DNA from: Acidobacteriota bacterium
Lineage (GTDB): Bacteria; Acidobacteriota; Thermoanaerobaculia; Gp7-AA8
Direction: 5' to 3'
DNA: 64,000 nucleotides
Assembly (NCBI GenBank): GCA_003223645.1
Contig: QHVT01000003.1
Span: forward strand, 62,001 to 126,000
Shown here piece after piece: positions 10,854-25,993 of the stretch. Position numbers and translations under genes: made by a program. Below the pieces are notes generated by a model that saw only the letters and a program-made list of their open reading frames with translations, had not been told where the DNA came from and ran no database searches. Position 1 is the first letter of the stretch; every line of letters starts with the position of its first letter.

Positions 10854-13589
10854 ATGATCGACAAAGTACTCACCGCCATTTTCGGCTCGAAGCACGAGCG
10901 CGATGTGAAAGCGATGCGGCCGACCGTCGCGCAGATCAACGCGCTCGAGCCCGAGATCAGCGCGCTGTCCGACGATCAGCTGCGCGAGAAAACCAACGAG
11001 TTTCGCGAGCGCCTCAAGCCGGTGGTTCAGGCGCTCGAAGACGTGAAGAAGGAAGTTCCCCTTGACGAGCATGCGGTCAAAGCCGCGAAGGATGACCTGC
11101 AGTACGCGCTAGACGATCTGCTGCCAGAGGCGTTCGCCGTCTGCCGCGAAGCGGGCAAGCGCGTGCTGAACATGCGCCACTTCGACGTCCAGCTGATGGG
11201 CGGCATCGTGCTGCATCGCGGAAAAATCTCCGAGATGAAGACAGGCGAAGGCAAGACGCTCGTCGCGACGCTTCCCGTTTATCTCAACGCGCTCACCGGC
11301 CGCGGCGTGCACGTCGTCACCGTCAACGACTACCTCGCGCGCCGCGACTCCGAATGGATGGGCCGTCTCTACAAGTTTCTCGGCCTCACCGTCGGCGTGA
11401 TCCAGAACTCGCACGGCGATCGCGAGCGGCAGCAGGCCTATCGCTGCGACGTCACGTACGGCACGAACAACGAGTTCGGCTTCGACTATCTCCGCGACAA
11501 CATGAAGTTCGATCTCGAGGCGATGGTGCAGCGCGATCCGGTGTACGCGATCGTCGACGAAGTCGACTCGATCCTCATCGACGAAGCGCGCACGCCGCTC
11601 ATCATCAGCGGACCGTCCGAGGAGAGCGTCGACAAGTACTACCAGGTCGATCGCATCATTCCGAAGCTGATCAAGGACGCCGACTTCCAGGTCGATGAGA
11701 AGCAGCACACTGCCGTGCTCACCGAGGAAGGCGTCGCGCACGCGGAGAAGCTGCTGAAGGTCGACAACCTCTACGACCCCGCGAACATGGACACGCTGCA
11801 CTGCGTGAACCAGGCCGTGCGCGCGCATGCGCTGTATCGCAATGACGTCGAGTACATCGTCACAGACGGCGAAGTCGTCATCGTCGACGAGTTCACCGGA
11901 CGACTGATGCCCGGCCGCCGCTGGTCGGACGGATTGCACCAGGCCGTCGAGGCGAAAGAAGGCGTGCGCATCGAAGCGGAGAACCAGACGCTCGCCACGA
12001 TCACGTTCCAGAACCTCTTCCGGATGTACGAGAAGCTCGCCGGCATGACCGGCACCGCCGATACGGAAGCGGCGGAGTTCGACAAGATCTACAAGCTCGA
12101 AGTCATAGTCATCCCGCCGAACCGGGCGATGGTCCGCCGCGATCAGCCCGATCTCGTCTATCGCACCGAGCGCGAGAAGTTCGACGCGATCGTGCAGGAG
12201 ATCAAGGAGAAGCAGGAGACCGGTCAGCCGTCGCTCGTCGGCACGATCTCGGTCGAAAAATCGGAGCACCTCGCGTCGCTCCTGAAGCGCCAGGGCGTGC
12301 CGCACGTCGTGCTCAACGCGAAGTATCACGAGCGCGAAGCGGAGATCGTCGCGCAGGCGGGACGCAAAGGCGCGGTCACGATCGCCACGAACATGGCCGG
12401 CCGCGGCACCGACATCCTGCTGGGCGGCAATCCCGAGTTCCTGGCCGCGCAGAAAACGAAAGAGGTCACCGAGCCGCGCGAGCGGCAGAAGATCGAAGAA
12501 GAGATTCGGGAGCAGTGGAATCGCGATCACGAAGAGGTCGTGAGTCTCGGCGGCCTGCACATCCTCGGCACCGAGCGGCACGAGTCGCGCCGCATCGACA
12601 ATCAGCTGCGCGGACGTTCGGGACGCCAGGGCGATCCCGGCTCGTCGCGCTTCTATCTCTCGCTCGAAGACGACCTGATGCGCATCTTCGGCGGCGATCG
12701 CATCATGGGAATCATGGAGCGCCTCGGCATGGAAGAAGGCGTTCCCATCGAGCACGGCATGGTCACGCGGGCGATCGAGCGCGCGCAGAAGCAGGTCGAG
12801 GGCCGCAACTTCGAGGCGCGCAAACACCTCCTCGAATACGACGACGTGATGAACAAGCAGCGTGAGTCGATCTACACGCTGCGCCGCTCGATCCTCGAAG
12901 GACGCGAAGGGAAGGAGTACATCCTCAACGCCGCCGACGAAATCGTCGCGTTCCTCATCGACACGCACGTCCCCGAGGGCGATCGCGAACATCCGAACGA
13001 ACCGGAGTTGAACGCGGAGCTGTACGACTACTTCGGACTCGATCTCGAAGACGCGGGCGTCGATCTCGACTCGATGCCGCGCGACACGGTCAAAGAAAAA
13101 ATCGTCGAATCGGTCAACGCGCGCTACGAAGAAAAAGAGCGCGCGGTCGGTCCCGACAACATGCGCCTCAACGAGAAGTACCTCCTGCTGCAGGTCATCG
13201 ACCAGCAATGGAAGGATCACCTTCTCAACATCGATCACTTGAAAGAAGGCATCGGTCTGCGCGGCTACGGCCAACGCGATCCGCTCATCGAGTACAAGAA
13301 GGAATCGTTCGAGCTCTTCCAGGAAATGATGGAACGCATCCAGGACCACGTCGTCAAGATTCTCTGGAAGATGGCGATCGGAGGGTCTGCCGAAGGCTCG
13401 GCGGAGGAGGTCCAGCGCGTCCAGCGCGCCCTCCCGCCCCAGCCGCCCAAACAGCAGCTCACGTTCAGCGGCGCGCCGAAAGAAGCAGCCGCGCCGGTCA
13501 AACGCACGCAGGCGAAGGTGGGACGCAATGATCCCTGCCCGTGCGGATCGGGGAAGAAGTACAAGAAGTGCCACGGCACGGCGGCGTGA
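10854..13589 (+). CDS. secA: Preprotein translocase ATPase SecA
   Basis: 911 aa, full length. Drives Sec-dependent export through SecYEG. Walker [10 protein letters not shown] lies near residues 126-134, [15 protein letters not shown] gives Walker B, and [13 protein letters not shown] and [12 protein letters not shown] belong to the second motor domain. The C-terminus has the SEC-C zinc motif [17 protein letters not shown]. Start chosen at the ATG after GAGAGATCCTC. The stop overlaps the ATG of the next small gene (TGATG). Confidence 0.97.
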
Positions 13590-13909
13590 TGACGATGTCT
13601 TTCGCGATCGACATTCCGAAAGAAGAACTACGCGATTTCTGCCGCAAGTGGAAAGTGACGGAGTTCGCGTTGTTCGGGAGCGCGGTCAAGCCCGACGACT
13701 TTCGTCCCGATAGTGACGTGGATGTGTTGGTTCAATTAGCGCCGGACGCTCCCTGGAGTTTTTCGTTGTGGCTCGATATGAAGGATGAGCTGACAGCGAT
13801 CTTTGGCCGGGAGGTCGACCTCGTCGAACGCGCAGCCATCGAACATATGCGCAATTACCTTCGAAGAGCAGCGATTCTCGATTCGGTGGTGCAACTTGAC
13901 GTCGCATGA
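13589..13909 (+). CDS. MNT-domain nucleotidyltransferase (MntA-type antitoxin)
   Basis: 106 aa. LFGSAVKPDDFRPDSDVDVL contains the minimal nucleotidyltransferase signature GSx(9-11)DxD, and the C-terminal RNYLRRAAILDS resembles MNT proteins of HEPN-MNT toxin-antitoxin pairs, where MNT AMPylates the HEPN ribonuclease. ATG overlaps the secA stop. The expected HEPN partner immediately downstream is only a remnant (13908-14012), so this antitoxin appears orphaned. Confidence 0.85.
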   Translation: MTMSFAIDIPKEELRDFCRKWKVTEFALFGSAVKPDDFRPDSDVDVLVQLAPDAPWSFSLWLDMKDELTAIFGREVDLVERAAIEHMRNYLRRAAILDSVVQLDVA

Positions 13910-16475: not shown

Positions 16476-17303
16476 ATGTCCATCTCGAAAACGATCGGTT
16501 TCGTCGGCGCGGGAAACATGGCCGAGGCCATGATTCGCGGGTTGCTGCGCGGAGGGGACTTCGCGGCGGAGGGTGTGTCGGCGTCGGGTCCGCGTGAAGA
16601 GCGGATGCGCGAGTTGCGCGAGAAGTACTCGATCAACGCGACGACCGACAACAAAGTGCCGGCCGCGTCGCAGATCGTCGTGCTCTCGGTCAAGCCGCAG
16701 ATTCTCAGTCGCGTGCTCGACGAAGTCGCCGGCGTGATCTCATCCGACGCGCTCGTGATCTCGATCGCCGCGGGAGTTCCGGTGGCCGCGATTCAGGCGC
16801 GGCTCGCGAGCGGCACGCGTGTCGTGCGCGCGATGCCGAACACGCCCGCGCTCGTCGAGGCCGGCGCGACTGCGATCGCCGGAGGCGAGCACGCGCGCGA
16901 GTCCGATCTCGAAGACGCGAAGAAAATCTTCGACGCGGTCGGACTCACCGTCATCCTCGAAGAGTCGCAGCTCGACGCGGTCACCGGCTTGTCGGGATCG
17001 GGACCGGCGTACGTGTTCCTCATCCTCGAGGGATTGAGCGACGCCGGCGTGAAGGTCGGGCTCTCGCGCCGCACCTCGCAGTTGCTCGCGGCGCAGACGT
17101 TACTTGGCTCGGCAAAGCTCTTGCTCGAAACTAATGAGCACCCGGGCCGTTTGAAAGACATGGTGACGTCGCCCGGCGGGACCGCGATCACGGGATTGCA
17201 CACGCTGGAAAACGGCGGCGTGCGGACGACGCTGATGAATGCGGTGGAAGCAGCGACGCGCCGTTCCCGTGAGCTCGGCGAAGCGCTGATGAAGAAGGAG
17301 TAG
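16476..17303 (+). CDS. proC: Pyrroline-5-carboxylate reductase
   Basis: 275 aa. N-terminal Rossmann GFVGAGNMAEAMIRG; C-terminal signature region LSGSGPAYVFLILEGLSDAG and TSPGGTAITGLHTLE. Catalyses the last step of proline synthesis, NAD(P)H reduction of 1-pyrroline-5-carboxylate. Divergent from the M23 gene with only about 27 bp between starts; followed after 2 nt by a DinB-like gene. Confidence 0.95.
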   Translation: MSISKTIGFVGAGNMAEAMIRGLLRGGDFAAEGVSASGPREERMRELREKYSINATTDNKVPAASQIVVLSVKPQILSRVLDEVAGVISSDALVISIAAGVPVAAIQARLASGTRVVRAMPNTPALVEAGATAIAGGEHARESDLEDAKKIFDAVGLTVILEESQLDAVTGLSGSGPAYVFLILEGLSDAGVKVGLSRRTSQLLAAQTLLGSAKLLLETNEHPGRLKDMVTSPGGTAITGLHTLENGGVRTTLMNAVEAATRRSRELGEALMKKE

Positions 17304-17305
17304 GC

Positions 17306-17884
17306 GTGCTGGAGGAAGTCGAAACAGAGCTGAGCGAGACGACGTCGCGCGCATGGCAGCTCGTGCGCTCTACCGACGGCCGCCTCTTCACTGTCCGCCC
17401 GACGCCGCGCGACTGGTCGGCCGCGGAGTGCATCGCGCATCTCAGTCTGTCGACCGAAGAGTTTCTGCCGGTGCTGCAGAAGGCGATCGAAGCCGCCAGG
17501 CAGAAAGGGTGGATGTCGAAGAAGAGGCCCGCGATGGACGTCATCGGCCGCACGCTGCGTTGGTTCCTCGAGCCGCCGATCCGCAAGCGCGTGAAAGCGG
17601 CGGGCCGTTTCGTGCCGCGCTCCGCGCGCGCGAAGTCGGAAGCATTCGGCGAGTTCGCCGCGCTGCAGTCGCAGCTCGTCGACGTCGTGCATAACGCCGA
17701 GGGACTCGACGTCCGCAAGATCAAAGTCTCGTCACCGTTCGACAAGCGCGTGAAGTACAACCTCTACTCCGCCTTCAAGATCATCGCCGCGCATCAGCGG
17801 CGGCATCTGTGGCAGGCGGAGCAGGCGGTGTCGACGGTGAAGGCGAATGTGGCCGCGCGCGCGTCGCAGCCGGCGTCAGTTTGA
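17306..17884 (+). CDS. DinB-superfamily protein
   Basis: 192 aa, GTG start. The four-helix DinB/YfiT layout is suggested by the helix WSAAECIAHLSLS (His as first metal ligand) and the late IIAAHQRRHLWQAE (two His), the three-His metal site of this family, which includes thiol-dependent S-transferases. Follows proC closely, so probably co-transcribed. Its last 9 nt overlap the convergent DedA gene. Function unknown. Confidence 0.75.
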   Translation: MLEEVETELSETTSRAWQLVRSTDGRLFTVRPTPRDWSAAECIAHLSLSTEEFLPVLQKAIEAARQKGWMSKKRPAMDVIGRTLRWFLEPPIRKRVKAAGRFVPRSARAKSEAFGEFAALQSQLVDVVHNAEGLDVRKIKVSSPFDKRVKYNLYSAFKIIAAHQRRHLWQAEQAVSTVKANVAARASQPASV

Positions 17885-18532
17885 CGCGTTCCGCTTCTGC
17901 GCCCGTCGCTGCATCCACGTCATCAGCCAGTACAGCGCGCCGATCGCGAGCGCGAAGCCGATGAGGTAATGCGACTTCTCTTTCAGCACTTCCGACATCG
18001 CCGACGGATCGTTCATCAGCTCCGGATGATCGCCGATCACTTTCGCGCCGAACCACGCCAGCGCGCTGCAGAAAATCGCCGCGCCGGTGACCGTCATGAT
18101 CGAGAACCACTTGAAGTTCATCCGGAACAAACCGGCCGGAATCGAGATGACATGGCGAATGACGGGAAGCAATCGCGCGACGAAGATGCCGCCCGCGCCG
18201 TACGCCCCGAACCACTGATCCGCTTTCGCGATTTTCTCCGGCTTCAGGAAGATGTACTTTCCGAAGCGGTCAACGAGCGGACGTCCGAACTTCCACGCGA
18301 TCCAGTAACTGACTGCCGAGCCGAACCACGAGCCGGCGGTCGCGGCGACGATCACGCCGGCGAAACTGAGGCGTCCCTGTGCGGCCCAATACGCGGCCGG
18401 CGGAATCACGATCTCGGCGGGGACGGGAAGCGCGGTGCTCTCCAGCGCCATCATCACGAAGATGCCGAGATAGCCCCAATCGAGAATGAACTGCATCCAT
18501 GTGGCGAGGAGATGGTGAAGGGTTTCTTGCAT
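17876..18532 (-). CDS. DedA/SNARE-associated family membrane protein
   Basis: 218 aa. ALESTALPVPAEIVIPPAAY, then GSWFGSAVSYWIAWKFGRPL and FVARLLPVIRHVISIPAGLF with the conserved GxxxSRxxP-type region (here ARLLPVIRH) place it in the DedA family of undecaprenyl-phosphate/phospholipid flippases. Four to five membrane segments. Convergent with the DinB-like gene. Confidence 0.9.
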   Translation of the reverse strand: MQETLHHLLATWMQFILDWGYLGIFVMMALESTALPVPAEIVIPPAAYWAAQGRLSFAGVIVAATAGSWFGSAVSYWIAWKFGRPLVDRFGKYIFLKPEKIAKADQWFGAYGAGGIFVARLLPVIRHVISIPAGLFRMNFKWFSIMTVTGAAIFCSALAWFGAKVIGDHPELMNDPSAMSEVLKEKSHYLIGFALAIGALYWLMTWMQRRAQKRNASN

Positions 18533-18558
18533 GAGGGCGGCGCATGCTACCAGACAAC

Positions 18559-19797
18559 TCAGCGCGCGGCGGAGAGGGCGGAGCGCTTGATTTTTCCCCG
18601 CTCATCGACCGGCATCGCGTCGATGAGTTTCACGATCCGCGGCACTTTGTGAGGCGAGAGCCGCGCCCGGCAATGCGAGCGCACGTGCTCTCGCGTGACG
18701 TCCGGCGTCGCGACGATCGCGGCCGCGACGACTTCTCCCCGCGCACCCGCCGCTTCGCCGTATACCTTCGCCTCGCGCACGCCGTCGAGCTGCAGGATCA
18801 CCGCTTCCACTTCCCGCGGGTTCACTTTCTTTCCCGCGGTGTTGATGAGATCGGACGCGCGTCCCGTCAGCACGAGCTCTCCGTCTTCGCGCATCGCGAC
18901 GAGATCGTCGGTGACGAATGTCTCGCTGCCGGCGACGGCGTTGCTGCGCACGGTCAGGCGCGAGTTTTCGATCGCAAGCTGAACGCCGTTCATCGCCGTG
19001 CCGACCGTTCCGCGCTCCGCTGCGCCGCCGATGCGGTCGTACGTGATGCCGCCCGTTTCGCTGCATCCGTAGAACGAATGGATGCCGATGCCGAAGCGCT
19101 CGCGGAAGCGGCGCGACGTCGACGCGGGAAGCGGCGCGCCGGCGGAGATGAACGTGCGTACCGTCTCGAAGTTGCCGTGCGCGGCGGACGCGAGGTGATC
19201 GAACACCATCGGGATCAGCGGCGCGACGGTGCAGCGATGTTCGTTCGCGAGCTCGATGAGCGTCTGCGGCAGATACGCGTTCGTCGCCACGATCGCAGTG
19301 CCTTGCACGAGAAGCGGCATGACGAGATTGCAGAAGCCGTAGGAGTGCGAGAACGGGATTGCGCCGAGGTTGATGTCGTCCGGCGCGAGGTTCATCGTGG
19401 AGCAGATGTTTTCGCAGTCGGCGATGAGATTCGCTTCGCTCGTGAAAATGCCTTTCGGTTTTCCCGTGGAGCCCGACGTCACTTTGATGATGCGCGTGCC
19501 TGCAGGAAGCGGCGGCGTGAACGTGTCGCGAATCATCGCGACTTCCGCGGGCGCGGCATCGCGGTCGATCGGGATCACGACGAGGTCGCGCTTCAGCGCT
19601 GCGAGGAACGTAGCGACGAACTCGGCCGAGTTCGGCAGCTGAATGGTGTGGTGCGGGCTTTCCAGCGCGCCCTCGATTTCCCGCGCTCTCTCCCACAACT
19701 CCGCCCGCGTCCAGACACGCCCCTCTTCGATCACCGCAACGGCGCGCGGATCGCGTTCGAGCAGGGTTAGAAATCGATCCAGCATCCGGAATACCAT
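18559..19797 (-). CDS. AMP-forming acyl/aryl-CoA or acyl-ACP ligase
   Basis: About 412 aa from the ATG at 19797 (alternative ATG 19785); longer readings run into the divergent ACP gene and are rejected. Adenylation motifs: VTSGSTGKPKG at about 107-116, FYGCSETGG, then LVLTGRASDLINTAGKKVNP and the C-terminal Lys in GKIKRSAL. ANL ligases activate carboxylates as acyl-adenylates. Small ligases like this, next to an ACP and ketosynthases, usually load a starter acid in aryl-polyene-type pathways; that role is inferred from context. Confidence 0.85.
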   Translation of the reverse strand: MVFRMLDRFLTLLERDPRAVAVIEEGRVWTRAELWERAREIEGALESPHHTIQLPNSAEFVATFLAALKRDLVVIPIDRDAAPAEVAMIRDTFTPPLPAGTRIIKVTSGSTGKPKGIFTSEANLIADCENICSTMNLAPDDINLGAIPFSHSYGFCNLVMPLLVQGTAIVATNAYLPQTLIELANEHRCTVAPLIPMVFDHLASAAHGNFETVRTFISAGAPLPASTSRRFRERFGIGIHSFYGCSETGGITYDRIGGAAERGTVGTAMNGVQLAIENSRLTVRSNAVAGSETFVTDDLVAMREDGELVLTGRASDLINTAGKKVNPREVEAVILQLDGVREAKVYGEAAGARGEVVAAAIVATPDVTREHVRSHCRARLSPHKVPRIVKLIDAMPVDERGKIKRSALSAAR

Positions 19798-19804
19798 CTT
19801 GCCC

Positions 19805-20074
19805 ATGACCGACTTCAAACACAAACTGAAAACGATGCTCATCGAGCGTCTGAAATTCGAGGACATGACGCCCGAGGACATCGATGATGACGCGCCGCTC
19901 TTCGCCGGCGGACTCGGCCTCGACTCGATCGACGCGCTCGAGATCGTGGTGATGCTGGAGAGCGAGTTCGGCATCAAAGTGAAAAACGAATCGGCCGCGC
20001 GCGACTACTTCGTGTCGATCTCGACGCTGGCCGCGTACGTCGAGGAGAAGCTCAACGAGCCGGTGTCGTCCTGA
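19805..20074 (+). CDS. Acyl carrier protein
   Basis: 89 aa. GGLGLDSIDALEIVVMLESE contains the Ser (in DSID) that receives 4'-phosphopantetheine, followed by the FGIKV helix of the carrier fold. It is a dedicated ACP rather than the housekeeping one: it is the first plus-strand gene of the ketosynthase cluster and is divergent from the AMP ligase (about 7 bp between starts). The stop overlaps the probable CTG start of the dehydratase. Confidence 0.92.
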   Translation: MTDFKHKLKTMLIERLKFEDMTPEDIDDDAPLFAGGLGLDSIDALEIVVMLESEFGIKVKNESAARDYFVSISTLAAYVEEKLNEPVSS

Positions 20075-20436
20075 ACTGGCTCGCGCGCCTCCCGCATCAA
20101 ATTCCTTTTCGCGCCGCGAGCGCGGCGCATCGCATCGATGAGAAAACGATCGCAGGCGTGTACGTCTGCACCGCGAACGACGCGATGCCGGCGGAGATCA
20201 TGATCGTCGAGGCGATGGCGCAGTTCGCGGGAGGGCTTGTGTTCGAGTCGCGCGGATTCTTCACCGGCATCGATCGCTGCGAAGTGTTGCGCGCAGTCGA
20301 ACCGGGTGACGTCGTCACGATTCACGTCGAGCTCGAAGCGGAGTTCGGCGGGACGTTTCGCTTCAGCGGCAGCGGCTCGATCGATGGAGTAGACGTCGTA
20401 CGTGGGAGGTTCTACCTCAGCAGTGCGCAAGCCTGA
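20071..20436 (+). CDS. Hotdog-fold 3-hydroxyacyl-ACP dehydratase-like protein
   Basis: About 121 aa if translation starts at CTG 20071, in a CTGA overlap with the ACP stop. That start keeps LPHQIPF, the conserved FabZ/ApeP opening; the first GTG (20158) would lose it. MIVEAMAQFAGGLVFE is the FabZ central helix region, but the GHFP loop carrying the FabZ catalytic His is missing (NDAMPAEIMIVEA instead). The ending VVRGRFYLS fits the hotdog sheet. It may be an ApeP-type dehydratase or a scaffold. Start and activity uncertain. Confidence 0.7.
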   Translation: MNWLARLPHQIPFRAASAAHRIDEKTIAGVYVCTANDAMPAEIMIVEAMAQFAGGLVFESRGFFTGIDRCEVLRAVEPGDVVTIHVELEAEFGGTFRFSGSGSIDGVDVVRGRFYLSSAQA

Positions 20437-21628
20437 TCTCTCGACGCGGATCGCGATCACCGGCGCGGGCATCGTCTGCTCGATCGGCCGCGACAAAGCG
20501 GAAGTGTGGCAGTCGATCGTCGACGCGCGTGCGGGCATCGCGAAGCTGACGCGATTTCCGGGCGAGACGTTTCCGACCGACCTCGCCGCGGAAGTGACGG
20601 CCGATCTTCCGAAGTCGCGGCGACTCTCGCGCACCGACCGGCTCGCGATCGTCGCCGCGAAAGAAGCGATCGAGCAGGCTTCCGAACATTCTCCGCTGCC
20701 GCGCGAGCGCGCGATCGTCTCCACCGGCACGTCGACCGGCGGTCTGCTCGAAGGCGAGGACTATTACTTCCGCCGCATCGTGCGCGGACGCCGCCACGCG
20801 CCCGCGTCGCTCGTGCTGCAGCAGCCGACATCGGGCCCGTCCGACGCCGTCGCGCGCGCCTTTCATCTCGGCGGCGGCGTCGTCTCGAACGCGACTGCCT
20901 GCGCGTCCGCCGGCGCCGCGATCGGCATGGCCGCGGACTACCTCCGCTCGCATCACGCCGACGTCGCGATCGCGGGAGGCAGCGACGCGCTCTGCCGCCT
21001 CACCTACAGCGGCTTCAACGTGCTGCAGGCCGTCGATCCCGAGCCGTGCGCTCCCTTCGACGCCGCGCGCAAAGGCATCACCCTCGGCGAAGGCGCAGGC
21101 TATCTCGTCCTCGAGCGATGGGAGGACGCCGTCGCGCGCGGCGCAAACATCCTCGCCGAACTTTGCAGCTACGGCGCATCGTGCGATGCGCATCATCCGA
21201 CGGCGCCGGCAGAAGACGGACGCGGCGCCGAAGCCGCCATGCGCGGCGCGCTCGCTGATGCGCGCGTCGACGCCGCGGCGATCGACTACGTCAACGCGCA
21301 TGGCACCGGCACCACGCTCAACGACTCCGCCGAAACGAAAGCGATCCTCGCTTCGCTGGGCGGCGGAGTGCCGGTGTCGTCGAGCAAGTCCTACTTCGGC
21401 CACACCCTCGGCGCCTCCGGCGCCGTCGAAGCCGTGGTCACCGTGCTCGCGCTGCAACACCAGACCGCGCCGCCGACGCTGCGCCTTCGCGAGCGCGCCG
21501 CCGACTGCACGCTCGACTACATCCCGGACACGCCGCGCCCGATGTCGCTGGAAAACGTCCTCTCCAACACATTTGGTTTCGGAGGGAGCAACGTGTCGTT
21601 GCTGTTTCGACGGGCCGAAGTAAACTAA
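20423..21628 (+). CDS. Beta-ketoacyl-ACP synthase (FabF-like, catalytically complete)
   Basis: 401 aa from GTG 20423 (GTG 20402 also possible). The condensing triad is intact: Cys160 in NATACASAGAA, His293 in NAHGTGT and His327 in SYFGHTLGASG; the end has NTFGFGGSN. Elongates acyl chains by decarboxylative condensation with malonyl-ACP. It overlaps the dehydratase gene and is paired downstream with a triad-less homologue, the KS-alpha/chain-length-factor arrangement of type II polyketide and aryl-polyene pathways. Confidence 0.93.
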   Translation: MRKPDLSTRIAITGAGIVCSIGRDKAEVWQSIVDARAGIAKLTRFPGETFPTDLAAEVTADLPKSRRLSRTDRLAIVAAKEAIEQASEHSPLPRERAIVSTGTSTGGLLEGEDYYFRRIVRGRRHAPASLVLQQPTSGPSDAVARAFHLGGGVVSNATACASAGAAIGMAADYLRSHHADVAIAGGSDALCRLTYSGFNVLQAVDPEPCAPFDAARKGITLGEGAGYLVLERWEDAVARGANILAELCSYGASCDAHHPTAPAEDGRGAEAAMRGALADARVDAAAIDYVNAHGTGTTLNDSAETKAILASLGGGVPVSSSKSYFGHTLGASGAVEAVVTVLALQHQTAPPTLRLRERAADCTLDYIPDTPRPMSLENVLSNTFGFGGSNVSLLFRRAEVN

Positions 21629-21635
21629 GCATCGA

Positions 21636-21860
21636 ATGACCCGGACTTTCACCGCAGTCTTTCAACCCGCCGATGAAGGTGGATTCGTAGCATGGGTCGA
21701 GGAACTGCCCGGCGCGAACACGCAGGGAGAAACTCTCGACGAAGCACGAGAGAATTTGCGTGAGGCGGTTGAGCTGATTCTGGAAGTGAATCGTGAGCGC
21801 TCGATGATGGATGTGGATGAAGCGGTGATCATTCGTGAGCCGCTCGTCGTGAACCTCTGA
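21636..21860 (+). CDS. HicB-like antitoxin, orphan
   Basis: 74 aa. FTAVFQPADEGGFVAWVEEL, PGANTQGETLDEARENLREA and VELILEVN form the partial RNase-H-like HicB fold. No HicA ORF is present on either side, and the gene sits inside the ketosynthase cluster, 7 nt after the KS stop. It may be a stand-alone regulator or a leftover of a toxin-antitoxin pair. It lacks a C-terminal DNA-binding extension. Confidence 0.8.
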   Translation: MTRTFTAVFQPADEGGFVAWVEELPGANTQGETLDEARENLREAVELILEVNRERSMMDVDEAVIIREPLVVNL

Positions 21861-21949
21861 TCAGCGCGGGACCGGCAGTCGAGGTCCTTGCAGATTTTTC
21901 GAGCCAGGGTCGTCTTTTCCGCTCGCGGTGGTATAACGCCGCGCCTCTC

Positions 21950-22963
21950 ATGACGCGCGTCCCCATCACCGGCATCGGTGTCATCGCGCCTTCCGCGATT
22001 GCGCCGATCGATCGCTTCGATACCACCGGCCTCTCCGCGCACACCGCCGCGCTGGTGCGCGACTTCAAGCCGAAGGACTACATCGCGCCGATGAAGATGC
22101 GTCGCATGAACGGGCTGTCGCGATTGGCGATGGCGGCGGCGAAGCTGGCGATCGCGGATTGCGGCGCTGTGCTTCCCGCGAACACCGGCGTGGCGATGGG
22201 GACGGCGTTCGGGCCGGTGCAGACGTCCGTCGACTACATGCGGGAGTATGTCGAGAAAGGCGCGGCGCTTGCGCCGCCGCAGTTGTTCGCGGAGTCGGTG
22301 GCGAACGCGCCGGGGAGTCACATCGCGATCGAGTGGGGGCTGCGCGGATTCAACGTGACGATCACGCAGCGCGAGTCGTCGGCGCTGGCCGCGGCGATGT
22401 ACGCGTGCGCACAGCTTGCGAAGGGAACGGTCCACGCGGCGCTAATCGGCGGTGTGGACGAAGTGAACGAGATGTTGTTCAGCGTCCTCGATCGCATCGG
22501 CGCGCTCGACGATGCGGGACTCGACGGAATGGTGATCGGTGAGGGAAGTGCGGTGCTCGTCGCGGGCAGCGCATGTGCGCGCGAGCCGTACGCGCATTTC
22601 TCGGGATTCGGAATCGCGCGCGATGCGACGGCGACGATCTCGGACTGGGGAAGCGATCACGAGAGCGTCGCGCGCGCGATGCGCGCGGCGATCGACGATG
22701 CGGAGATCGCGCTCGAGGACATCGACGCGGTTCATGTCTCGGCGAACGGCTCGCGGCGTTGCGATGCGCTCGAAGCGCGCGCACTCGACGCGCTGTTCGG
22801 CGCGAAGATGCCGCGGCTCGTGAACACGAAAAAAATCTACGGCGAGTACGCTGCCTCAGGCGCGCTGCAAATCGTCGAAGCGGTTCGCAACGTGGAGCGG
22901 CATCTGCTCGTGAATTCGATTTCGGCGGGGGGAGGGATCGTTTGCGCAGTGATCTCGCGGTGA
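21950..22963 (+). CDS. Chain-length-factor-like ketosynthase homologue (inactive)
   Basis: 337 aa, thiolase fold. N-terminus VPITGIGVIAP; IGEGSAVLV and SISAGGGIVCAVI correspond to conserved KS positions. All three catalytic residues are replaced: the Cys position reads TQRESSA, the first His NGSRR instead of HGTGT, the second EYAASGA instead of GHTLGASG. Loss of the triad beside an active KS is the pattern of chain-length factors. About 60 residues shorter than the KS. Its 3' end overlaps the glycosyltransferase start by 22 nt. Confidence 0.82.
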   Translation: MTRVPITGIGVIAPSAIAPIDRFDTTGLSAHTAALVRDFKPKDYIAPMKMRRMNGLSRLAMAAAKLAIADCGAVLPANTGVAMGTAFGPVQTSVDYMREYVEKGAALAPPQLFAESVANAPGSHIAIEWGLRGFNVTITQRESSALAAAMYACAQLAKGTVHAALIGGVDEVNEMLFSVLDRIGALDDAGLDGMVIGEGSAVLVAGSACAREPYAHFSGFGIARDATATISDWGSDHESVARAMRAAIDDAEIALEDIDAVHVSANGSRRCDALEARALDALFGAKMPRLVNTKKIYGEYAASGALQIVEAVRNVERHLLVNSISAGGGIVCAVISR

Positions 22964-23622
22964 TCATTCCCGCGTACAACGCGGAGCGGACGGTGGGGAA
23001 CGTCGTGATCGAGGCGCGCAGGCAGCACGAGCCGGTGATCGTCATCGACGACGGATCAGTCGACAAAACCGGCGATGCCGCGCGTGCGGCGGGAGCTGCG
23101 GTGGTGCTGCGTCACGACGTGAATCGCGGCAAGGGCGCGGCGCTGAAAACAGGATTCGCGTGGGCGCTCGACAACGAATACAGCGCGGTGATCACGCTCG
23201 ACGCGGACGGGCAGCATCTTGCTTCCGAGATCCCGAAGTTCATCGAGCAGTACGCGCGCGGAGGCGAGGACCTGATCATCGGCGGGCGCGCGCATCTCTT
23301 CATGCAGATGCTCCCGCGCCGCCGCAACGCGAATCGCTTTTCGGCGTGGTGCATCGCGAAATGCTCCGGCGCCGACATCACCGACTCGCAGAGCGGCTTC
23401 CGCCTCTACTCCGCGCGTCTCCTGCGCGCGCTGAAATTGCGCGCCGACCGCTTCGACATGGAGAGCGAAGTGATTGTGCTCGCCGCCAAGCGCAAGCTGC
23501 GCATCGTCACCATCCCGATCGAGCTCGGCTTCGTCGACGGTCTCGCCACCTCGCACTTCCGCCCGCTCGTCGACACGCTGCGCATCGCGTGGACGGTGAC
23601 GCGCGCGAAATTCCTTTGGTAG
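22942..23622 (+). CDS. Family 2 glycosyltransferase (DPM1-like)
   Basis: 226 aa from TTG 22942, chosen because a strong GGGGGGAGGG lies about 5 nt upstream. VIIPAYNAERTVGNVV and TLDADGQHLASEIPKF give the nucleotide-binding DxD region; DITDSQSGFRLYS is the acceptor-site motif typical of polyprenyl-phosphate sugar transferases. No membrane segments. Overlap with the CLF-like gene ties it to the cluster, suggesting glycosylation of a lipid or lipid-linked product (inference). The TAG stop coincides with the first bases of repeat E. Confidence 0.87.
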   Translation: MRSDLAVIIPAYNAERTVGNVVIEARRQHEPVIVIDDGSVDKTGDAARAAGAAVVLRHDVNRGKGAALKTGFAWALDNEYSAVITLDADGQHLASEIPKFIEQYARGGEDLIIGGRAHLFMQMLPRRRNANRFSAWCIAKCSGADITDSQSGFRLYSARLLRALKLRADRFDMESEVIVLAAKRKLRIVTIPIELGFVDGLATSHFRPLVDTLRIAWTVTRAKFLW

Positions 23623-23692
23623 TGGAGCGGCGGCCGCTCTCGGCCGCCGACGTTTCGCGAAAAATCGGCGGCCGAAGCGGCCGCCGCTCCAC
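23622..23692. repeat. Repeat family E (copy 2)
   Basis: GTGGAGCGGCGGCCGCTCTC ... CGGCCGAAGCGGCCGCCGCT then CCAC, inverted arms around a CGTTTCGCGAAAA centre. Shares its first base with the glycosyltransferase stop and lies between convergent genes. Confidence 0.9.
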
Positions 23693-23699
23693 AGGGACG

Positions 23700-25268
23700 T
23701 TACTTCGGCAACGGTTTTCGCGGCAACATCTCCGCGCGATTCGCCGCCTCCCACACGAACGTCGCCGCCACGACGGCGGCCTGCATCAAGTCGTCGCGCT
23801 GCAGGCGCTCGTACGTGTCCCAGTTCGTGTGATGCGTGCGCGTGCTGTATTCGATCTCGTCCTGGATGAACTGGAATCCGGGGATTCCGGCTTCGTCGAA
23901 CGAGATGTGATCGGTGCTCATCGTGTTGCGCATCGTGACGGCGGTGGCGCCGAGGTCGTGGAGCGGGAGGAGCCAGTCGGCGAAGATCGGGGCGACGGCG
24001 GCGTTTTCCTGCGCGTAGATGCCCCGCACCTTGCCGGTGCCGTTGTCGAGATTGAAGTAGGCGGAGATTTTCGCGTGATCGGGCTTGAGAACGAGCTCGC
24101 CCTTGTCCGTGGTTCGCTGTCCGAGCGGGAGCTTTGCTTGTTCCGGATCCTTCGGTGTCGTGCGCGACGCGAAGTGCTCGGCGACGTAGCCGCGCGAGCC
24201 GAAGAGTCCCTGCTCTTCGCCGCTCCAGAGCGCGATGCGGATCGTGCGCCTCGGTGCGATGCCGAGCGCTTTGATGATGCGCACCGCTTCCATCATCGCC
24301 GCGACGCCGGCCGCGTTGTCGGTGGCGCCGGTCGCGCTCTGCCACGAGTCGAGGTGCGCGCCTAACATCACGATCTCGCCTTTCTTGTCTGTCCCCGGAA
24401 TCTCGGCGACCGTGTTGTAGCCGTCCTTGTCCTGATCGTAGAACTGTGCGTGCAGGTCCACTTCGAGCTCGACGTTTTTCTTCGCGTCGATGAGGCGCGC
24501 GATGCGGTCGTAGTGTTCCGGTGCGAGCGCGATCGTCGGCACGCCCTGCGGCTCCTCGGGATTCCAACTGCCGAATCCCTGTTGCACGTTGAACGTTCCG
24601 CCGTCGCCGCGTCCGACCTGGATGAGCACCGCGATCTTCTCGTCCATCGCGAACTGGGCGAGCGCGCGGCGGAACTCGCGGCGCGTCTGCGCCTCGCGGC
24701 GCCGCGTGTCATTGAGCTGCGGGACCTCGTACGCCGCCAGCTTCTCGAGCTCCGCGTCGTCGTATCGCTCGAGCGCGGCTTTGTCCTGCGGCTTCAGCTC
24801 GCGCGCGTCGTTGATCATCACGATCGCGCCGGCGAGCTTGCCTTTGTTTTTCTCGAGGTCCTCTTTCGTCTCCAGCTTCACCTTCTTCACGATTCCGCGC
24901 ACCGGACCGTTCGTCGGCGGCGACCACGCGAGTCCCGCGGCGTAGAGCTGCTGCGTATCCGGCGCGAGCATGCGCACGACGCAGTAGTCGGACGTCCATC
25001 CGCGGCCGAACGGTCCCCACGACTCGAGATGCGCGTTCGTGAGACCAAACTCCGTCAGCTTGTCGCGCGTCCACTCGTTCGCCTTCTTCATGTTCGGCGA
25101 ACCCGTCACGCGCGCGCCGATCTGGTCCGTCAGCGCCTCGGCGATCTCCATCACTTTCGAATTGCGAAAGCCTTCCGCGCGGATGCGCGTCACGATTTGC
25201 AGGTCGGGTTGTTCGGCGGCGAGGGCGGCGGCGAGAAACAGAGAAAAGATGACAGTCCGCAGTTTCAT
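23700..25268 (-). CDS. Secreted M28-family zinc aminopeptidase
   Basis: 522 aa with signal peptide (MKLRTVIFSLFLAAALAAEQ). Metal and catalytic motifs of M28: GAHLDSW, GATDNAAGVA, WSGEEQGLFGSRGY and a late STDHISFDEAGIPGF. A PA-like insert occupies the region between about residues 130 and 270. Co-catalytic zinc peptidases of this type release N-terminal residues from peptides outside the cytoplasm. Convergent with the glycosyltransferase, separated by repeat E. Confidence 0.9.
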   Translation of the reverse strand: MKLRTVIFSLFLAAALAAEQPDLQIVTRIRAEGFRNSKVMEIAEALTDQIGARVTGSPNMKKANEWTRDKLTEFGLTNAHLESWGPFGRGWTSDYCVVRMLAPDTQQLYAAGLAWSPPTNGPVRGIVKKVKLETKEDLEKNKGKLAGAIVMINDARELKPQDKAALERYDDAELEKLAAYEVPQLNDTRRREAQTRREFRRALAQFAMDEKIAVLIQVGRGDGGTFNVQQGFGSWNPEEPQGVPTIALAPEHYDRIARLIDAKKNVELEVDLHAQFYDQDKDGYNTVAEIPGTDKKGEIVMLGAHLDSWQSATGATDNAAGVAAMMEAVRIIKALGIAPRRTIRIALWSGEEQGLFGSRGYVAEHFASRTTPKDPEQAKLPLGQRTTDKGELVLKPDHAKISAYFNLDNGTGKVRGIYAQENAAVAPIFADWLLPLHDLGATAVTMRNTMSTDHISFDEAGIPGFQFIQDEIEYSTRTHHTNWDTYERLQRDDLMQAAVVAATFVWEAANRAEMLPRKPLPK

Positions 25269-25294
25269 CGGCCGCGTAGTGTAATGGAAGCTGC

Positions 25295-25993
25295 ATGAAC
25301 GTCACGCGCACGGCATCGGCCGCGTTCACCGTCGCATTCGAGAGCGAGAGCGAGCTGCGCGACGAGCATCGCGACAATCTCTCGATGGGCGGCCTTCGCT
25401 TGCAGACGACCGAATCGATCGCGCTGAACACGACGATTCTTCTCACGCTGCGCGGTCCGTTCGGCGGAGAGGCGATCGCGAAGGCAACGATCGTCGCGCA
25501 ACTTCCGGACGGACTCGCGCTCGCCGTCGACGGCGATGCGGAAGAGCGACTCGCGCGATTGCTCGCGAAGCTGGAGACGGATGCTGCGTCACCCGCGAAC
25601 CTGTGGGAGCGAATGCGCGCGCTGACGCAAACCGAAAAGCTGCTGCTCGCGGTGAAGGCTGATCGTCCCGAGCGCGCGGTGCTGCTGCAGGACAACGATC
25701 CGCGCGTGCTGCTCTCGCTGCTGCGCAATCCGCGGATCACGGTCGACGAAGTCGTGCGCGTCGCGAAGTCGTCGTACCTCACTTTTCAAATCGCGGACGT
25801 GATCTCGAAGACCGGCCAGTGGATGTCGAACCTCGACGTCCGCATCGGCCTGATTCACAACGCGAAGACGCCGCAGCCGCTCGCGCTGCGCATCCTGCCG
25901 ACGCTGCCCGACGCCGAAGTGCGCAACATCGCGCGCAGCGGAACGAACATGGGCCTCAAGACGGCGGCGCTGCGGCAGCTGGCGGCGAAGTGA
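25295..25993 (+). CDS. PilZ-like N-terminal domain protein with helical C-terminus
   Basis: 232 aa. The first 90 residues (DNLSMGGLRLQT, then a beta-rich stretch ending ATIVAQLPDG) resemble a PilZ domain with the D/NxSxxG element; the RxxxR pair is weak (RDEHRDN). Residues 110-232 are helical and repeat-like (DPRVLLSLLRNPRITVDEVV), similar to HEAT-type repeats. A c-di-GMP response is possible but the incomplete motif makes it tentative. Divergent from the M28 gene. Confidence 0.55.
   Translation: MNVTRTASAAFTVAFESESELRDEHRDNLSMGGLRLQTTESIALNTTILLTLRGPFGGEAIAKATIVAQLPDGLALAVDGDAEERLARLLAKLETDAASPANLWERMRALTQTEKLLLAVKADRPERAVLLQDNDPRVLLSLLRNPRITVDEVVRVAKSSYLTFQIADVISKTGQWMSNLDVRIGLIHNAKTPQPLALRILPTLPDAEVRNIARSGTNMGLKTAALRQLAAK

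Follow-up and report, generated by a model that had tools for sequence, protein, structure and literature searches.

What does a gene cluster make that pairs an active ketosynthase (KS) with a catalytically dead partner, the chain-length factor (CLF), and that holds no ketoreductase (KR), thioesterase (TE), acyltransferase (AT) or exporter gene of its own? The question is raised by positions 18559-23622 of a 64,000-nucleotide stretch of acidobacterial DNA (hereafter the window), which corresponds to positions 62001-126000 of contig C21 in a 6.38-Mb genome (G000) of the class Thermoanaerobaculia. Our analysis indicates that the locus belongs to a polyene-lipid pathway known from several families of the phylum, here in reduced and dispersed form, and is not a brand-new minimal cluster. 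Its probable role is that of the core of an aryl-polyene (APE)-like, highly reducing type II polyketide synthase (PKS) pathway, which would supply a membrane glycolipid with a polyene acyl chain. A ligase gene on the minus strand is followed on the plus strand by genes for an acyl carrier protein (ACP), a hotdog-fold protein, the KS, a HicB-like open reading frame (ORF), the CLF and a GT2 glycosyltransferase:

18559-19785, minus strand: AMP-binding acyl/aryl ligase (Pfam AMP-binding, 1e-45, plus a C-terminal domain), the conserved divergent partner in family f1
19805-20074, plus strand: ACP (Pfam PP-binding, 8e-11; NCBIfam PRK09184 at its 70-bit cut-off)
20071-20436, plus strand: ApeP-like, hotdog-fold dehydratase-like protein (fold prediction, family motifs and alignment to ApeP)
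20423-21628, plus strand: active KS (Pfam N- and C-terminal ketoacyl-synt domains, motif alignment and trees)
21636-21860, plus strand: HicB-like (UPF0150) ORF of 74 residues (Pfam UPF0150, 30.7 bits against a cut-off of 27.3)
21950-22963, plus strand: CLF of 337 residues (alignment to a KS, family alignment and CLF clade)
22942-23622, plus strand: GT2 glycosyltransferase of the polyprenyl-phosphate type (Pfam Glycos_transf_2, 4e-22)

The pair at the center of the locus is catalytically asymmetric. The KS has an intact C-H-H-K set (NATACASAG, NAHGTGT and SSKSYFGH), whereas a HMMER alignment of the CLF to 9s5h_B has all three KS catalytic residues replaced: Glu142 stands at the place of the cysteine, Ser264 at that of the first histidine and Glu299 at that of the second. 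Lys294 is retained. The three replacement residues and the lysine are invariant in the family alignment. Chains B and C of PDB 9s5h are themselves a KS and dead-KS pair, and this entry is the top PDB sequence match of the family CLF; it is not among the first 50 fold matches of the CLF model, whose best fold match is the ishigamide KS/CLF (6kxd). As that model is only moderate (pLDDT 64), we draw nothing on chain length from it.

Hidden Markov model libraries label both proteins as FabF-like, as would be expected if they were ordinary FabF duplicates that had come to lie side by side by accident. The phylogenies point elsewhere. In a KS/CLF tree of 87 rows, the cluster KSs and ApeO form one clade (99/95; 97/93 in a second tree with added references), apart from the genome's own FabF and that of Escherichia coli, and the acidobacterial cluster CLFs form a single clade (100/99; 100/93 in the second tree). 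The added references make the KSs sister to the KS domains of the Priestia/Streptomyces fusion type, typified by the fused KS-CLF of Priestia pBM500 (97/96), still apart from FabF, while the exact place of ApeO is unsure because it sits on a long branch. In both halves of the tree, KS and CLF, the window's order separates from the remaining sequences in the same way; moreover, the genome's own FabF is encoded separately on contig C4, and the cluster is conserved throughout the family. Hence, the notion of accidental FabF duplicates can practically be discarded, and the active KS and triad-less partner proposed in the preliminary description emerge as a true KS/CLF pair.

The genes are also conserved together. 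Close orthologs of the CLF are present in 17 of the 17 other genomes of the family, covering all 12 genera, and in G018, from a sister family within the order; the window's family is represented here by metagenome-assembled genomes only. Where the contigs extend far enough, the divergent ligase followed by ACP, hotdog, KS, CLF and GT2 recurs in this order across the family, with a DedA gene upstream in several genomes and a ParA-Crp-PgsA-trigger factor block downstream in most. In many relatives, a Trp_halogenase-family flavin oxidoreductase (FAD1) sits between the ligase and the ACP, and a second flavin oxidoreductase (FAD2) has a close homolog in 11 of the 17, adjoining the ligase in several. 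All cluster genes show coding-type substitution patterns, with differences mostly at third codon positions (selection was judged from codon-position differences alone, not from dN/dS). A chance grouping is excluded by the recurrence of the gene order together with these patterns. Of the two outcomes named beforehand as refuting the preliminary description, placement of KS and CLF within ordinary FabF clades and a lack of joint conservation of the genes, neither was observed. In the window, the locus lies among housekeeping genes, with SecA upstream and trigger factor and ClpP/ClpX/Lon downstream. Its presence throughout the family beside such core genes makes it likely that the pathway is a standing membrane trait rather than an occasional secondary metabolite.

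Other families of the class and phylum have this divergent core too, and there it runs on into an SDR-type KR, an MMPL exporter and an LpxL-type AT. Six such full clusters from Thermoanaerobaculia and other classes (L121, L157, L166, L168, L170 and L210) share the ligase diverging from ACP-KS-CLF-GT2, have kept the KR, mostly carry the MMPL and AT genes behind GT2, and have a NodB-like deacetylase adjoining the ligase; a methyltransferase, an extra hotdog protein and flavoenzymes also occur near such cores. Pfam confirmed the SDR, MMPL and LpxL-type domains on one full cluster and the Trp_halogenase-type flavoproteins from another. In contrast, in the window's family these genes have been lost or scattered, and a hotdog gene lies between ACP and KS. 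The small size of the locus, which had been taken as a possible sign of a new minimal pathway, is best read as the reduction and dispersal of a larger one.

The dispersed parts can be traced in the window genome. An ortholog of the in-cluster KR lies at C21:547780-548505, about 464 kb from the locus: the cluster KR query scores 199 bits against this gene and 126 bits against the next, and in the full-cluster genomes the best match of the C21 gene is the in-cluster KR. In the KR tree, the C21 KR joins those of families f1 and f2 in a group that is sister to the in-cluster KRs, with support of 100/98, and separate from housekeeping FabG. Since a dedicated KR exists, the suggested reliance on a housekeeping enzyme for this step is unlikely. 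In the region L150:8802-12533 (contig C21), the neighbors of the unlinked KR are a GT2 gene and one resembling acetyl-CoA synthetase. G018 has a similar arrangement, lying a few kb away from Crp-PgsA-trigger factor; in the window's family, this block is found beside the cluster.

The LpxL-type AT has its ortholog at C31:94079-94975, a reciprocal best match of the in-cluster ATs, for which a tree was also made. Thus, the absence of KR and AT noted in the preliminary description holds for the locus only, as orthologs of both lie elsewhere in the genome. Beside the C31 AT are a deacetylase (40% identity to that of L121) and a methyltransferase (28%), both with counterparts in the full clusters; the deacetylase tree lacks an outgroup and does not settle its orthology. 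A conserved family block at L151:4623-11788 (contig C31) comprises a PIG-L deacetylase, glycosyltransferases, the LpxL-type AT, a NodB-like deacetylase and a methyltransferase. Possibly, this C31 block represents the lipid-anchoring portion of the pathway, relocated.

The exporter has had a different fate. The only MMPL match in the window genome, and the main match in each family genome, belongs to a separate, class-wide kind of MMPL. Genomes with a full cluster have this MMPL as well as the in-cluster protein (550-630 versus 125-176 bits). The in-cluster type was not found in the window's family, from which the dedicated exporter thus appears to have been lost; export would therefore proceed through another transporter or not take place. 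Three further groups of genes were considered as pathway components and set aside. A seeming half cluster around the MMPL gene on C41 has housekeeping neighbors (BioY-, BirA-, CoaX- and RpiA-like), and its MMPL is the class-wide ortholog. The KS of a KS-methyltransferase-FAD group on C7 (L107:7740-11141) and that of an ACP-KS pair on C36 both fall outside the cluster-KS clade.

The resemblance to aryl-polyene clusters that had been proposed for the locus is borne out by the grouping of its KS with ApeO and by a gene-by-gene comparison with the apeA-R cluster of E. coli CFT073. The ACP is 45% identical to ApeE, the KS 33% to ApeO and 32% to ApeR, and the GT2, which corresponds to the GT2 portion of ApeJ, 30% to ApeJ, with the cluster AT at 29% to the same protein; the extra hotdog protein of L121 shows 25% identity to ApeP, with which the window hotdog can also be aligned. 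The likeness to the APE systems of E. coli CFT073 and Xenorhabdus doucetiae thus extends over the AMP ligase, ACP, KS with CLF, hotdog, GT2 and LpxL-type AT, and the full clusters of the sister families further share the SDR-type KR and the MMPL exporter. Anchoring of APEs by ApeD/ApeJ and their export by ApeM have been proposed (PMC8253772). The functions joined in the lipid-anchoring ApeJ would here be divided between GT2 at the locus and the AT on C31. Likewise, the locus has no ApeQ-type KR, the ortholog of the in-cluster KR being unlinked on C21, no ApeM-type MMPL was found in the family, and no ApeK-type TE is present at the locus. The CLF is of full-size KS type (337 residues here, about 395 in relatives), whereas ApeC is half that size, at 240 residues (PMC8358021), and there is only the KS and CLF, with no second, FabB-like KS such as ApeR. 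LolA-type genes too are absent from the locus, a genome-wide search for TE and LolA not having been made. We call the locus APE-like rather than an APE cluster because of its full-size CLF and the lack of ApeR, ApeI, TE and LolA at the locus. With highly reducing type II PKSs of the ishigamide type (Iga11-Iga12) and the fused KS-CLF of the pBM500 type it shares a KS with a full-size dead CLF, an ACP, a hotdog protein and a KR, here unlinked; it differs from them in having GT2 and lipid-anchoring genes and in encoding neither a FabD-like malonyltransferase nor a phosphopantetheinyl transferase at the locus, and the acidobacterial KSs are closer to ApeO in the tree.

These observations can be assembled into a putative pathway. 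The ligase would activate a starter acid, probably aromatic, and load it onto the ACP, whose phosphopantetheine site reads LDSIDALE. The KS with its dead partner would add malonyl units and set the chain length, the unlinked dedicated KR would reduce each keto group, and the ApeP-like hotdog protein, probably paired with a histidine-bearing FabZ-type partner, would form a double bond by removing water. The chain would then be attached by GT2 and the unlinked LpxL-type AT to a glycolipid, which might serve as a membrane pigment or antioxidant as APEs do.

The hotdog protein deserves particular attention here. Its AlphaFold2 model (pLDDT 85) has FabZ folds as top matches, with a TM-score of about 0.8 to FabZ, and it retains LPH and EAMAQ, partly as in ApeP, with LPHQxPFRA and EAMAQ invariant in the family. 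It lacks the HFPG loop that bears the catalytic histidine of FabZ. This lack, the resemblance of GT2 to polyprenyl-phosphate glycosyltransferases and the missing in-cluster-type exporter would also suit a modified, non-polyene acyl chain, namely a family-specific inner-membrane lipid made with the housekeeping FabG and FabZ, with GT2 glycosylating a carrier. We consider such a product very unlikely, given that a dedicated KR exists whose tree shows the same split as those of KS and CLF, that the KS groups with polyene-type KSs and not with FabF, and that the full clusters of the sister families resemble aryl-polyene clusters.

Several observations nevertheless weigh against a polyene chain made by an APE-like pathway. 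Besides the hotdog protein without the catalytic histidine, the locus has no ApeI-like dehydratase, having one dehydratase-like gene against the two (ApeI and ApeP) of APE clusters, and the ligase is divergent, at just 23% identity to ApeH. The window genome lacks both FAD1 and FAD2, which are found in most relatives, and its ligase and CLF carry deletions unseen in most of them. Moreover, the cooperation of the unlinked KR and AT with the core is predicted from their orthology.

The polyene reading can also be drawn further, to a family-wide APE-like pathway without a dedicated exporter and with scattered KR and AT genes, in which the polyene lipid stays in another membrane system or is transported by it. 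The hotdog protein would then act only as the non-histidine half of a FabZ heterodimer, and the CLF would, independently of the APE clusters, be on its way to the half-size form seen in ApeC. We put this fuller version forward tentatively, regarding it as rather doubtful in its entirety.

The state of the window copy raises the question of whether the pathway is still in use. Compared with 11 relatives, the ligase has three in-frame deletions of 6, 18 and 13 residues, given as 39 in total, one of which removes the stretch around ...GYL..D.., a loss that could matter for activity. The CLF has lost 55 residues in three in-frame deletions (16, 12 and 27), including the first N-terminal helix region, and the KS 10 residues, again in frame, against 0-1 in the ACP, hotdog, GT2 and the six flanking genes tested. 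Together with the missing FAD1, FAD2 and exporter, the HicB-like ORF inserted between KS and CLF and the CTG start of the hotdog gene, these losses might portray a decaying relic of a pathway that is disappearing from the window's species, with ligase and CLF eroding. However, there is neither a frameshift nor a stop codon, the larger losses are all in frame, the KS motifs are intact, and KS and CLF have branch lengths similar to those of the nearest relative. The dominance of third-position differences indicates that selection still acts. Further, the CLF of the relative G001 has lost 34 residues (11 and 23) from seemingly the same two loops, and a stable CLF without the first helix is known in the Acinetobacter ApeC (AbApeC), with a truncation of about 20 residues (PMC8358021). 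We therefore view decay as unlikely, and the APE-like pathway as probably still maintained, although the in-frame deletions have possibly weakened the ligase and the CLF.

Viewed thus, the family and its relatives show how a full polyene-lipid cluster can become dispersed, and offer natural test cases for what a CLF can lose. Cluster-finding software would miss or misjudge a pathway of this kind, as its parts are scattered.

As for the finer layout, all six genes named in the preliminary description exist at this place, with corrections to strand, starts and overlaps. The ligase (408 residues from the ATG at 19785, with alternative ATGs at 19797 and 19806) is divergent from the rest, and its start codons almost abut the ACP start at 19805. 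The hotdog frame has no ATG within the conserved length, and the frame matching the relatives opens at CTG 20071, the likely start. The KS ORF opens at 20402, and its most probable start is GTG 20423, the point at which the relatives begin with MRKxD; GT2 starts at TTG 22942, inside the end of the CLF, and stops at 23622. The locus had been described as packed with overlaps: this is true of ACP/hotdog (the CTG overlapping the ACP stop by 4 nucleotides), hotdog/KS and CLF/GT2, but not of KS, HicB-like ORF and CLF. The HicB-like ORF, not named in the preliminary description, has no equivalent between KS and CLF in any of the nine relatives for which gene calls were made, and no HicA-like partner was recognized beside it.

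Two further features of the window were noted. An MNT-like nucleotidyltransferase adjoins SecA at 13541-13909; in a relative (L040), a HEPN-like partner (2210-2545, flipped coordinates) follows the MNT-like gene, and none was recognized in the window. The region 17000-25500 gave neither an Rfam match nor a promoter signal. A long GC-rich inverted repeat (GGAGCGGCGGCCGC...GCGGCCGCCGCTCC) at 23620-23695, where the GT2 and M28 peptidase genes converge, is the top terminator-like match of the scan.

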